Made by a program: the position numbers and the translations under genes. Under the pieces are notes generated by a model. It searched no databases. It was given only the letters and a program-made list of their open reading frames with translations, and had not been told where the DNA came from. From an uncultured Chlorobiota bacterium (GTDB lineage Bacteria; Bacteroidota; Ignavibacteria; UBA10030; UBA6906): DNA of 64,000 nucleotides. This document shows positions 56,732 to 64,000 of the stretch, one piece after another; the first letter of the stretch is position 1, and every line of letters begins with the position of its first letter. The stretch is taken from positions 310,001 to 374,000 of the forward strand of contig CAADGV010000033.1 of NCBI GenBank assembly GCA_900696645.1. Direction: 5' to 3'.

Positions 56732-57946
56732 ATGAGATACAATGCGGGCATTTCCCGTCTTCAGAAAGACCCCCGATACCACGACGCAAAGGATGCGCTG
56801 TGGAGTATTCTTCACCATCGGGTTCCGTCAGACGCAACGCTTGCGCGGGTGTTCGGGACGGAGAAATCGCGATACGTGAGGCATCTGGTTGGAGATTTTA
56901 TTACGAAGAATCCGCATACGGGAAAGAAACCGCGGGCACATGACAATGCAGCGCCGACTGAGATCGGCGACAAGCGATTCGACCTTGAGAAGAAAGAATC
57001 ATACCAACGCAGTCAACTGCGACTGCTGCAATGGCAGGTTCCCGATCTGTCGGATCTCACGGACTTGTACGGCACGTACGCGCAAACCGTCCGGAAGGTT
57101 TTTCAACTGTTCCTCGATACCGGACTCAAGCGAAAATGCGGTATTTCAACGGCTGCGCATCTTAACAGAGTAGGCGCGTTAACCGGTGCGATGGGAATTG
57201 ATGATGATACCACCCGGCGCTACAGCGCCATCGGCGCATTGCATGATTGTATTGAGGATCTTCTCAACCGCGTACGGAACGCGAAAGGCAGAGTTTACGG
57301 TCTCTCGGGATATGACAAGTTTGTTGATGTGCATCTTCCGGCAGAACTACAAACCTCCGTTGTTCAGCTCACGAATCACTACGATCTGATCCTCGAGCAT
57401 ATCCACACCGACCTTACACGTAACGAGCGGCTGTTTTCCCAGAAGACAGTTCTTCTGTTTCTCGAGAAAATGATGCGACGCGGCTTGCCTGAGTTGGTCA
57501 GCTACGTATCACGCATGCACGACGTTCTTTCAAAGGTTGATCCGGACAAGAGCTTTGCGGAATCGGCAAAATGGGTTCTGTACAAGGAGTTGTATATTCA
57601 CGACATGGCGCAAACGACACATCAAATTAGCAACTACCGGACGTACGAGATAAAGGCGATTGACCTTTCGGACAACGCCCACGGCAGGGACGCCCTGGCA
57701 ATGTCGGGCAGGATCAAAAACCTGATCAAGATGGATATGTGGGCCCGGGAAGGCTATGCTCTCAAGTCCTCCTGGCGGCCACTGAATAATCACATCGCCG
57801 AACTTGAAGAAGATGCCCTTGTTCACGCGGAACATCTTCTGATTCGTGATTTTCTCGAAGGTGCCTCAACCCTGGACTTCGTCAGCTCCGCACTCATCAA
57901 AATCAACGACCTCTCCCCTGTGTTCTATGTTGACGACATTCCTTAG
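56732..57946 (+). CDS. HD-domain protein resembling the (p)ppGpp hydrolase of RelA/SpoT
   Basis: A 404-residue cytosolic protein with no family I can name. The central part carries the metal and catalytic layout of the RSH hydrolase: His143, His171-Asp172 with HDCIED (Glu175, Asp176), and a late K308xxD311xxxN315, matching K-x-x-D-x-x-x-N of RelA/SpoT. Between HDxxED and that last motif lie about 135 residues instead of about 65, so an insertion is present. No synthetase or TGS domain follows. The N-terminal 130 residues and the last 80 are helical and unassigned. GGAG precedes the ATG. It may cleave (p)ppGpp or another nucleotide; this is inferred. Confidence 0.6.
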   Translation: MRYNAGISRLQKDPRYHDAKDALWSILHHRVPSDATLARVFGTEKSRYVRHLVGDFITKNPHTGKKPRAHDNAAPTEIGDKRFDLEKKESYQRSQLRLLQWQVPDLSDLTDLYGTYAQTVRKVFQLFLDTGLKRKCGISTAAHLNRVGALTGAMGIDDDTTRRYSAIGALHDCIEDLLNRVRNAKGRVYGLSGYDKFVDVHLPAELQTSVVQLTNHYDLILEHIHTDLTRNERLFSQKTVLLFLEKMMRRGLPELVSYVSRMHDVLSKVDPDKSFAESAKWVLYKELYIHDMAQTTHQISNYRTYEIKAIDLSDNAHGRDALAMSGRIKNLIKMDMWAREGYALKSSWRPLNNHIAELEEDALVHAEHLLIRDFLEGASTLDFVSSALIKINDLSPVFYVDDIP

Positions 57947-57954
57947 TCGTCAAG

Positions 57955-57992
57955 CAAAAGAAAGCCGTCATGCAGGTACTATGCATGACGGC
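57955..57992 (-). terminator. Intrinsic terminator after glnA
   Basis: A perfect 11-base-pair stem (GCCGTCATGCA at 57964-57974, TGCATGACGGC at 57982-57992), loop 7. On the minus strand it is followed by TTTCTTTTG, so it ends glnA; the hairpin can also slow transcripts arriving from the HD-type gene on the plus strand. Confidence 0.85.
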
Positions 57993-58022: not shown

Positions 58023-59453
58023 TCAACAATCAAAATACAGCCCGAATTCGTAGGGATGTGGCCGCAGCGCCATTGCTTTGACCTCCTTCTCCATCTTGTA
58101 CGTTATCCACGTTTCGATAACGTCATTCGTAAACACGTCGCCACGAAGCAGAAAATCGTGATCACGTTCAAGGGCCTTGATAGCCTGTTCAAGGGAGCCC
58201 GGCGTTGATGGCACATTCTTCAATTCTTCCGGTGCAAGGTCGTAGATATCCTTGTCAAGAGGCTCTCCCGGATCTATCTTGTTGATAATGCCGTCAAGTC
58301 CCGCCAGCAACATTGCGGCAAATTGCAGGTACGGATTTCCCGACGCATCCGGACACCGGAACTCAATTCGCTTCGATTTCGGGCTTGAGGAATACATCGG
58401 GATACGAACTGAAGCGCTGCGGTTGCGCTGGGAATACGCAAGGTTCACCGGCGCCTCAAATCCCGGCACAAGACGCTTGTACGAATTGGTTGTCGGGTTG
58501 GTGAATGCACACAATGCCGGCGCATGTTTCAATAGGCCGCCAATATAGTACAAGGCCATTTCGCTGAGGTTTGCATACCCGTTTCCGTAGAACAACGGCT
58601 TGCCGCCTTTCCACAAACTCTGATGCACGTGCATTCCCGATCCGTTGTCTCCAAAAATCGGCTTTGGCATGAACGTAGCAGTTTTGCCTCGTGCTACGGC
58701 CGTATTCTTGATGATGTACTTGAACATCATCATATCATCGGCATGTTTCAAAAGTGAGGCAAACTTCAAATCAATCTCCGCTTGTCCGCCGCTTGCCACT
58801 TCGTGATGCTGTGTTTCGACATCAAGCCCCACCCCCATCATGTTCAATACCATTTCATTGCGAAGATCCATCAGATGATCTGTAGGCGGGGCGGGATAGT
58901 ATCCTTCCTTGTGACGCGGTTTGTAGCCGAGGTTGGGCATTTCGTCACGACCAGAGTTCCAACGTCCCTCAATCGAATCCACATGGTAGTAACTGCTGTG
59001 TCCTTGTGTGTCGAAGCGGATATCATCAAAGATGAAGAACTCGGCCTCAGCACCCATGAATGCCGTGTCAGCAATACCTGTTGACTGCAAATACTGCTCT
59101 GCTTTGTGTGCAATACCTCGGGCGCAACGGCTGAAGCGCTCTTTCGTCAGCGGATCGAAAATCTCGCAAATGAAACTGACTGTCTTCACCTGTACAAACG
59201 GATCGATGATGGCAGTTTTCGGGTCCGGCATCATCAACATATCGCTTTCGTTGATTGCTTTGAAGCCGCGGATCGACGAGCCGTCAAATCCGAATCCGTC
59301 CTGAAACGATGATTCTTCCAGCCGATGAACAGGCACTGTCACGTGCTGCCATACCCCGAGAAGATCAACGAATTTGAGATCGACCATTTGCACGTCATTG
59401 TCCTTGATCATCTTGAAGACGTTGGCAGTTGCCGATGCACCTTTCTTAGCCAT
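58023..59453 (-). CDS. glnA: Glutamine synthetase, type I
   Basis: Makes glutamine from glutamate, ammonia and ATP; dodecamer in the cytosol. The 476 residues begin with the beta-grasp part ([33 protein letters not shown]), have [12 protein letters not shown], the ATP site [41 protein letters not shown] and [10 protein letters not shown]. The Tyr of the adenylylation loop is kept (Y404 in DIYDLAPEE), so covalent regulation by an adenylyltransferase is possible. It is 81 bases after lrp and ends at a terminator. Confidence 0.97.
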
Positions 59454-62288: not shown

Positions 62289-63155
62289 TCAGTTGCTGTT
62301 CCGGAATGTGAATGATAGAAAGCTTAGGCTTGTTTGAGGGCTCATAAGGCTCTTGAATACGGTGCAAATGAGACAAAAACCCGACGCAGAGTCAAGTGGT
62401 AGGTCATCATTTGGGTATTTGAACGAGTATAGTGGATCGCCGGGAGTTGGAGATGGTGTGTAGGAACGAGCGAATTCATGCTCCAAATATTCGTGGATAC
62501 TCCAACGCACATTGTTGAGCAATTCAGCCATCGTTGTACTGTGATATTCAAAAATGTCGTGTTGAAATCGTCCTTGGAAGTCTTCAAGAGCCTGCAATCC
62601 ATCCAACCGAGAGACTTCAATGCCGTTTTCAGCGAGGAGTTCTGTGAGACTCTTCGCAACTCTGGTCAGGCGAGAAAGATTGTGTTTCGAGATATTGCCA
62701 CAAATTGTGGTGAACCGCCCTCGCTGTAACTTTAGTGTTGTGTTGATCTCAATGCTCGGGAACCATACTTCCACTTGAATGATTGATTCCAGCCAGTCTT
62801 TGAGTCTTGTGACATCCGGGAGAAGTTTATTTTGATTCTTGGAGCTATTGAGCTTGGGTGCCTGAGCCGTCTTGTGCAATGCGTCGATCAGTGATCCGTT
62901 GACGCCGAGAAGGGATGAATCGACGCGTTCAAGAAGGTCGGCAAATAGCACGTTGAAAAGCTCCCGTCGTGCGGGAGAAACCAACGTTGCTTGGATCTGA
63001 ACGTTCCCTTCAGACAATTTCAGCATTTCGCGATTGACCATCGATTGAAGAGACTGAACAACGAACTGCAAGATGATAGCTTCTCTTTCAATCTCGTTGA
63101 AACCAGATGAATCGGGCGCTGGAAGCATGTCAAGATCGATAAACTCCGAATGCAA
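62289..63155 (-). CDS. Protein of unknown function
   Basis: A 288-residue soluble, helical protein without a family I can name. The N-terminal half has FNEIEREAIILQFVVQSLQSMVNREMLKL and FNVLFADLLERVDSSLLG; the middle, VTRLKDWLESIIQVEVWFPSIEIN. The start is TTG at 63155, or ATG at 63128; neither has a strong ribosome site. It overlaps the upstream gene by 26 bases and abuts the next, so the three look like one operon. Confidence 0.6.
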   Translation of the reverse strand: MHSEFIDLDMLPAPDSSGFNEIEREAIILQFVVQSLQSMVNREMLKLSEGNVQIQATLVSPARRELFNVLFADLLERVDSSLLGVNGSLIDALHKTAQAPKLNSSKNQNKLLPDVTRLKDWLESIIQVEVWFPSIEINTTLKLQRGRFTTICGNISKHNLSRLTRVAKSLTELLAENGIEVSRLDGLQALEDFQGRFQHDIFEYHSTTMAELLNNVRWSIHEYLEHEFARSYTPSPTPGDPLYSFKYPNDDLPLDSASGFCLICTVFKSLMSPQTSLSFLSFTFRNSN

Positions 63156-64000
63156 TGATCGTCAAGGTGTGCCGCAAAGCGCATGTCAAACAGAATCTTT
63201 GCTTTCGCCTAACGGCTCGGCAAACAACGCCGCCGTTTTGCGAACTATCAAATGACAAATTTCTCGTGAGCAAAACGGTGGAACGAGCAAAACGTGCGAA
63301 TCGTTCATAGGAAGCAGTGACTGAACCGGCACGAGGGTTATCATGCCCCAGCGTGTCCTTGATCAGGTTGGCAACGTAGTTGAAGGCAAGGTGCGCGCTC
63401 ATGAAGGGCTCATCCGTAAGATAGAAATTCTCGTGCAGGGGATATTCTGCATCTGCGCCAAATGTTGCCGCTTCCTGCTTAATGGAGCTGTCAAGCAGAC
63501 CGGCAAATAAATAGTGGCGTGCGAGCGAATCCTCTACAATGACTTTGTCCAGATATGTGGTAACATGCCCATACCAGTACACTTGCAAATCAATGCCGCC
63601 GCATGGGGCGGCATTTGAACTTAGGACACCACCAGAAAGGAATGGAGATGGAGGCTCCGCTCCCGGATTTTGAACCGGGTATGAAACGTTGAACGGCAGA
63701 GTGAACTCCTTGTAAACTCCCGCACTGTCAAAATCGCCGGCAAGGAGTATCTGGTCAGCCAGTATCTGGGCGTTGCCTTTGCATTGCACAATACAATGCG
63801 CGACCGTATCGCCCGCCGAAAATGGTTGATCTATTTTGGGCCTGAATGTTGCCCACCAATCGGTTTGTTTGTAATGATACTCGTTGTCCGGCACTGCAGA
63901 TTTGACCATGAAACCCGCGGAATCAGGTGGAGTTAGAAAACGTGCTGAGTCTCCGTCTGGGTGCAAAGTGGGATGTTTGTATTTGAAGTACTCTCTAATC
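63130..64000 (-). CDS. Probable secreted protein of unknown function (5' end outside window)
   Basis: The frame is open to the right window edge (reading IREYFKYKHPTL before the TTG at 63966), so the N-terminus is missing. The visible ~289 residues are strand-rich and polar, with segments such as FSAGDTVAHCIVQCKG and GGIDLQVYWYGHVTTYLDKVIVED that resemble carbohydrate-binding-like beta-sandwich parts of surface proteins in this phylum, followed by a helical segment. The last 25 residues overlap the next gene. The family is not recognised. Confidence 0.6.
   Translation of the reverse strand, partial: IREYFKYKHPTLHPDGDSARFLTPPDSAGFMVKSAVPDNEYHYKQTDWWATFRPKIDQPFSAGDTVAHCIVQCKGNAQILADQILLAGDFDSAGVYKEFTLPFNVSYPVQNPGAEPPSPFLSGGVLSSNAAPCGGIDLQVYWYGHVTTYLDKVIVEDSLARHYLFAGLLDSSIKQEAATFGADAEYPLHENFYLTDEPFMSAHLAFNYVANLIKDTLGHDNPRAGSVTASYERFARFARSTVLLTRNLSFDSSQNGGVVCRAVRRKQRFCLTCALRHTLTIIAFGVYRS

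Follow-up and report, generated by a model that had tools for sequence, protein, structure and literature searches.

A 404-amino-acid protein encoded in the window, by which we mean the whole 64,000-nucleotide stretch analysed here, represents a branch of the RSH hydrolases that has gone unrecognised and forms an unnamed family; it is twice the size of the small alarmone hydrolases (SAHs), which break down the bacterial stress signal ppGpp. It is the same kind of enzyme as the RSH hydrolases, in a new architecture. We are close to certain of the RSH fold and of the type of chemistry; the explanation that best covers the data as a whole, an enlarged stand-alone RSH-type 3′-(pyro)phosphohydrolase with alarmones as its likeliest substrate, is one that we favour at somewhat better than even chances. 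The gene and the element that follows it are located as follows.

56732..57946, + strand: coding sequence of 404 amino acids, RSH-like HD hydrolase, with an ATG start common to the orthologs (the family begins MRY)
57964..57992, no strand: perfect 11-bp inverted repeat, terminator-like, read from the sequence, between the 404-amino-acid gene and the glutamine synthetase gene

The open reading frame is a real gene, and its protein is under strong purifying selection. A syntenic ortholog encoding a 94% identical protein is found in an unchanged gene order in a sister species (G001), and the two genes differ at 18, 11 and 114 sites in codon positions 1, 2 and 3, respectively (dN of 0.029, dS of 0.44-0.61, dN/dS of approximately 0.05-0.07). 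The 404-amino-acid gene stands by itself. The glutamine synthetase gene (58023-59453, − strand), itself neighboured by an Lrp/AsnC gene, is convergent with it, and the inverted repeat lying between them may, judging from its form, act as a terminator. The other flank carries an enoyl-CoA hydratase gene and a phosphoribosyltransferase gene (apt-like by eye). Further along the window, gene order relative to the sister species is broken at 62289-63966, where the corresponding segment (L003:407-3111) carries instead transposase-like, ParA-like and beta-lactamase-like ORFs (names assigned by eye).

Single-sequence searches with the window protein gave no match to E 10 in Pfam and NCBIfam and none in PADLOC or the PDB; a PHROG metal-dependent phosphohydrolase was matched weakly (E of 0.18 over residues 133-176). 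Profile comparison confirms homology to the HD domain of RSH proteins at the level of sequence. Aligned with RSH HD profiles using hhalign, the family scored 69 (probability of 96.2, P of 2.1e-9), against 20 at most in 100 column shuffles and 10.9 for the reversed control. A family profile to which archaeal rows had been added (A6) detects two archaeal long RSH genes through their HD domain (E of 2.9e-5 and 9.1e-4) and also finds intermediate archaeal stand-alone proteins of 328-392 amino acids (L152, L153 and L154, from genomes G770, G767 and G719, respectively), in which RSH-like HD motifs occur together with an insert. These intermediates have LTN (L152 and L154) or ITN (L153), and the K..D..DN elements are present in L152 and L154. 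The 392-residue L152, matched by A6 with an E-value of 9e-17, is the only one of the three to exceed the curated Pfam HD_4 cut-off (27.6 bits for a cut-off of 27.2), and it is the link through which the window protein is connected, on sequence grounds, to the known HD_4 domain. The window protein itself is unmatched at the 27.2-bit cut-off of HD_4 (PF13328), the best of 20 family members reaching an E-value of 0.095, and for this reason we do not assign it to HD_4. The original prediction, that the protein has the catalytic layout of a (p)ppGpp hydrolase, had proposed a profile search against HD families as a check, and this search yields a specific link to the RSH HD domain.

The predicted structure is that of an RSH hydrolase. 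The full AlphaFold2 model, built from a 25-row alignment, has a pLDDT of 92.3 and a pTM of 0.89. Plain Foldseek returned weak matches only for this model, as expected because a helical domain is inserted. Structural re-ranking, in which the Foldseek candidates were re-aligned, placed MESH1 (3nr1) first (Z of 12.3, 168 of 178 residues, 3.1 Å), and the top 13 rows were all RSH proteins, followed by PDE9 at a Z of 7.2. For the HD core folded separately (residues 104-376, pLDDT of 90.4), the first entries were RelH (7qod, Z of 13.2), MESH1 (13.1), SAHs (12.7-11.7) and SpoT (12.3), the top 24 PDB entries were all RSH proteins (MESH1, SAH, Rel, SpoT and RelA; Z of 13.2-8.2), and the first non-RSH entries were YpgQ at 8.1 and then PDE6 at 6.4; plain Foldseek on the core alone also ranked MESH1 first (E of 0.26, probability of 0.96). 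Since the re-ranking tool warns that helical models may often give Z-scores of up to about 13, our argument rests on the unbroken run of RSH proteins together with the sequence evidence. A phosphodiesterase catalytic domain is not the best structural match (Z of 7.2 versus 12.3 for the full model, 6.4 versus 13.2 for the core), nor was a best match to any unrelated family seen, one of the two outcomes that the original prediction had named against itself; its proposal of a large and possibly new alarmone or nucleotide hydrolase class remains the best reading. The structural alignment also pairs MESH1 residue 177 with model residue 367, and counting back from there puts MESH1 N126 one position away from N315, which supports our assignment of the last of the following motifs.

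57131..57160, + strand: RKCGISTAAH, residues 134-143, counterpart of the RSH loop R44-K45-S46...H53, aligned by hhalign
57242..57259, + strand: HDCIED, residues 171-176, metal and catalytic motif (RelSeq H77, D78, E81, D82)
57368..57376, + strand: LTN, residues 213-215, at the RSH VTK site, N215 replacing K
57653..57676, + strand: KAIDLSDN, residues 308-315, counterpart of RSH KxADRxHN (metal ligand D144; base/phosphate ligand N148)

In RelSeq, R44, K45 and S46 hold the guanine (S46 through its main chain), H53, H77, D78 and D144 are the Mn2+ ligands, N148 contacts base and phosphate, and hydrolysis is abolished in the R44Q and D78A mutants (PMC13299517). Both of these essential residues have counterparts in the window protein. 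In the family alignment (39 rows, 38 of them different), R134, H143, H171, D172, E175, N215, Y284, K308, D311, N315 and K333 are found in every row. The metal-ligand equivalents H143, H171, D172 and D311 are therefore all among the fixed positions, as is E175, equivalent to the first residue of the RelSeq catalytic pair E81-D82; D176, equivalent to the second, is present in 38 rows and replaced by T in the remaining one. Residues 134-143 would, by their counterpart, form the base-binding loop and provide the first metal ligand: R134 is invariant, residue 135 is K or R in 34 rows, residue 136 is C (37 rows) or S (2 rows), and the spacing from R134 to H143 is nine, as between RelSeq R44 and H53. 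The loop is kept apart from the replacement of RSH S46 by Cys in the window protein, and N315 stands for N148. At the VTK site, N215 is fixed and T214 occurs in 36 rows, with S in the other 3, and the residue following the metal Asp is L in the family.

Pairing of D311 with D144 is based on motif spacing to N315, which is four as between RelSeq D144 and N148, and on the ends of the structural alignment. The hhalign alignment itself places RSH KxADRxHN on residues 258-264 (YVSRMHD); we rejected this placement because the stretch is unconserved, while K308, D311 and N315 are fixed and fit the structural-alignment ends. A second alignment of 20 rows, which takes in the most diverged archaeal proteins, has only 12 invariant columns, and 7 of these are the RSH hydrolase residues R134, H143, H171, D172, E175, D311 and N315. 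His143, HDCIED at 171-176 and KxxDxxxN at 308-315 thus lie where the original prediction had read them, fixed in the family except for D176 (38 of 39). Its count of about 70 extra residues is correct as well, since H171 and D311 are 140 residues apart versus 67 for RelSeq H77 and D144, and so is the absence of a synthetase domain, a Pfam search giving no RelA_SpoT match in the protein and none following the ORF. As a separate observation, small HD_4 proteins from the same class (L095, L097, L099 and L102) have K/R-LAARLDN where RSH proteins have KLADRLHN, with Ala in place of the metal Asp and a new Asp three residues on; from their sequences, these proteins could be inactive or have another metal geometry.

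Outside the catalytic set, the protein carries several added parts.

56756..56914, + strand: N-terminal helical module copy 1, residues 9-61, profile match to residues 84-132
56981..57127, + strand: N-terminal helical module copy 2, residues 84-132, from profile comparison, running into the first HD-core helix
57377..57643, + strand: helical insert region, residues 216-304, about 59 more residues than RSH, from spacing versus Rel and SAH
57689..57943, + strand: C-terminal helices, residues 320-404, with invariant K333 and conserved W.P.N, E..ED, DLL..S..DF and FY

Comparison of the two N-terminal segments gave a score of 34.4 (probability of 93, P of 2.9e-7), with 17.7 at most in 200 column shuffles, and indicates that residues 9-61 and 84-132 are an internal duplication of one helical module, of which copy 1 has the consensus A..iL..il...P...LL..LYG...a.ii...i..F; in the AlphaFold2 model, the second copy forms helices 89-99 and 106-130. 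Neither this duplication nor the R134-K-C-G loop had been picked up in the original prediction. Of the approximately 73 residues in excess of RelSeq, about 14 lie between the HD motif and T214, and the other 59 or so separate T214 from K308. The insert is modelled as helices 216-230, 237-250, 253-266 and 275-299 and includes a conserved KW.CYKELY segment (W281 in 36 of 39 rows, Y284 in all 39). A PDB match of profile A6 to influenza haemagglutinin HA2 over the helical insert (E of 0.03) was taken as chance helix similarity. The last part of residues 320-404 falls outside the MESH1-like core. The insert and the doubled module may control access or bind a larger partner.

The protein resembles several known systems and differs from each. 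Atkinson 2011 defined seven SAH subgroups (paSpo, pbcSpo, pbcSpo2, Mesh1, Mesh1-L, rickSpo and divSpo; PMC3153485). With SAH and MESH1 proteins (3nr1, 7qod, 7qoe, 6yvc) it shares the core fold (Z of 12-13 over about 170 aligned residues), the metal and catalytic residues in the same order and identity, the R-K-[SC]-G loop nine residues ahead of the first His, and the lack of a synthetase domain. Unlike them, the family has a longer stretch, by about 73 residues, from the HD motif to the last metal Asp, the doubled N-terminal module and the C-terminal helices, has LTN for VTK and xDL for ADR, and scores below the HD_4 cut-off. Small size marks SAHs, whose solved chains measure 171-193 amino acids, and because of its 404 residues the window protein is not filed as a typical SAH. 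The hydrolase fold (Z of 12.3-8.2) and catalytic residues are likewise those of the HD domain of long RSH proteins (Rel, SpoT and RelA; 6s2u, 1vj7, 7qpr), and the family profile detects archaeal long RSH HD domains, whereas the window protein is without SYNTH, TGS and RIS, and its genome encodes a long Rel as a distinct gene at another place. The Bacteroides caccae (p)ppApp hydrolase 7smg is also a stand-alone core (Z of 10.4-10.6 over 138-139 residues) but consists of 141 residues without insert or N-terminal module. YpgQ, HD pyrophosphatases and phosphodiesterase catalytic domains have in common with the protein the general HD/PDEase helical fold and the HD motif.

A protein search of the phylum (395 genomes) recovered full-length relatives with 37-44% identity, and a six-sequence profile detected the family in 31 of the 391 genomes examined for the class. 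Most named records with family members are Ignavibacteria, which assigns the window to that class. The original description of the protein as an orphan therefore holds with respect to named families and fails with respect to relatives, which exist in Ignavibacteria and in archaea. Distribution is patchy, since in the window's own taxonomic family only two of the sampled species, both of the window's genus, carry the gene. By title and abstract, no such enzyme is described in the openly available literature on ppGpp in Ignavibacteria, subscription papers lying outside the scope of this search. No relatives were found in phages, plasmids or viral contigs, which led us to discard the idea of a mobile element or defence function. 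The gene neighbourhoods show nothing conserved from lineage to lineage that would point to the stringent response; MscS channels lie beside several of the genes in one lineage, and Por_Secre_tail, WD40 and CoA-ligase-like proteins occur in some lineages, none of them across the family.

Five clear carriers, with more diverged members, were found among 279 genomes searched in an archaeal phylum. One of them, Candidatus Woesearchaeota KatS3mg002 (L059), has two family copies in tandem (L059:6592-9206), the first with DLFFNGIG where most members have DLSDN.HG and with all metal residues kept. Contamination was rejected as an explanation for this contig, which carries aRF1-like and other archaeal-type genes (by eye), and in further archaeal genomes diverged members recur in similar gene surroundings. 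In the four other carriers (L141-L144), the member adjoins or lies near a helicase-like ORF; three of the four are also near an argS-like ORF, and some have an eS6- or uS7-like ORF (all by eye). This repeated setting suggests that the family is an old resident gene in its archaeal carriers.

In the function that we propose, the protein would be an RSH-type nucleotide 3′-(pyro)phosphohydrolase that stands alone and depends on a metal, with an SAH/MESH1 core at twice the usual size. The metal ion, by analogy Mn2+, would be held by H143, H171, D172 and D311, the substrate would place its purine base in the R134-K135-C136 loop and against N315, and a water activated by E175 and D176 would attack the 3′-diphosphate. 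The likeliest substrates in Ignavibacteria would be (p)ppGpp and its relatives, such as pGpp and (p)ppApp, and the protein would serve as an extra, separately controlled hydrolase alongside the bifunctional Rel, with the insert and the doubled N-terminal module tuning access or regulation. We consider alarmone hydrolysis its probable main role. Alarmones should be present in this cell, since its genome encodes a small synthetase as well as a long Rel (with HD_4, RelA_SpoT and TGS domains). Co-occurrence with synthetases, taken as a test of function, gives no support. A RelA_SpoT gene is present in 30 of the 31 bacterial carriers (a second synthetase in only three), but this says little since all 61 sampled genomes of the phylum keep the Rel hydrolase domain. 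In the archaeal phylum, 2 of the 5 clear carriers have a RelA_SpoT synthetase versus 121 of 279 genomes overall, and the family is therefore not enriched with, or associated with, the synthetase. These 121 genomes have the domain mostly in long RSH proteins, and their share is close to the 41.7% given for Woesearchaeota (PMC8407392).

The fold does not fix the substrate, since NADPH, (p)ppApp and further nucleotides are also hydrolysed by MESH1 and by SAHs of bacteria (PMC9765508; PMC7644958). A tentative alternative, which we hold as possible but clearly below the alarmone reading, is that of a separate enlarged RSH hydrolase class of Bacteria and DPANN archaea acting on a 3′-(pyro)phosphorylated substrate other than an alarmone, possibly a cofactor or an RNA end, which the doubled module and helical insert would help recognise. 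The cofactor version taken on its own, in which the same fold and chemistry serve as a 2′- or 3′-phosphatase of a cofactor or nucleotide (NADPH, CoA, PAPS or pAp) with alarmones as a side reaction at most, appears to us rather unlikely. MESH1 acts on NADPH, a CoA activity has been reported (PMC13221220), a complex with PAPS has been solved (9chy), and a Xanthomonas SAH also hydrolyses NADPH (PMC9765508). Three of the five archaeal carriers are without a detected alarmone synthetase, in genomes that may be incomplete, and the family has LTN and DLSDN where RSH proteins have VTK and DRLHN; the departures at S46, at the VTK lysine and after D144 (C/S, N and L, respectively) count against alarmones. 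This version has to accommodate the conservation of the RSH base-binding loop described above and, for what the bacterial co-occurrence is worth, the retention of RelA_SpoT by nearly all bacterial carriers.

The RNA version, in which the enzyme removes a 3′ (pyro)phosphate from RNA or tRNA ends and the added helical parts bind nucleic acid, is improbable. Known SAHs remove the tRNA 3′-CCA pyrophosphate placed by toxic synthetases (PMC11559606), and both the doubled helical module in a protein of twice the SAH size and the helicase-like and argS-like neighbours in archaea fit this proposal. However, neither the window nor the mapped loci showed a recognisable toxic synthetase close to the gene, and the archaeal neighbours look housekeeping, such that their proximity could be mere position. 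That the protein belongs to a different class of HD enzyme (cyclic-nucleotide phosphodiesterase, YpgQ-like pyrophosphatase or dNTPase) and only resembles RSH is highly improbable and already largely refuted: PDE9/10 and YpgQ are indeed among the structural matches, but at Z-scores of 8.1 and less versus 13.2-8.2 for RSH proteins, and the sequence profiles link specifically to the RSH HD domain, no sequence link having been found to YpgQ or the phosphodiesterases. We give similarly little credence to a catalytically dead regulatory or binding protein using its pocket as a sensor: RelA keeps an inactive HD domain (PMC3153485), so that loss of activity does occur in the superfamily, but the metal and catalytic residues here are fixed even in the most diverged archaeal rows, save for the one D176 to T replacement.

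Identification of this enlarged RSH-type hydrolase bears on how alarmone metabolism is inventoried. Genome surveys of stringent-response enzymes use Pfam HD_4 and similar models, and the family, which keeps the hydrolase active site while scoring below the HD_4 cut-off, has therefore probably been missed in them. If the protein degrades alarmones, it would constitute an uncounted control point for ppGpp in some Ignavibacteria and in archaea of the Woesearchaeota group; if it does not, it would reveal a new substrate for the MESH1 fold.
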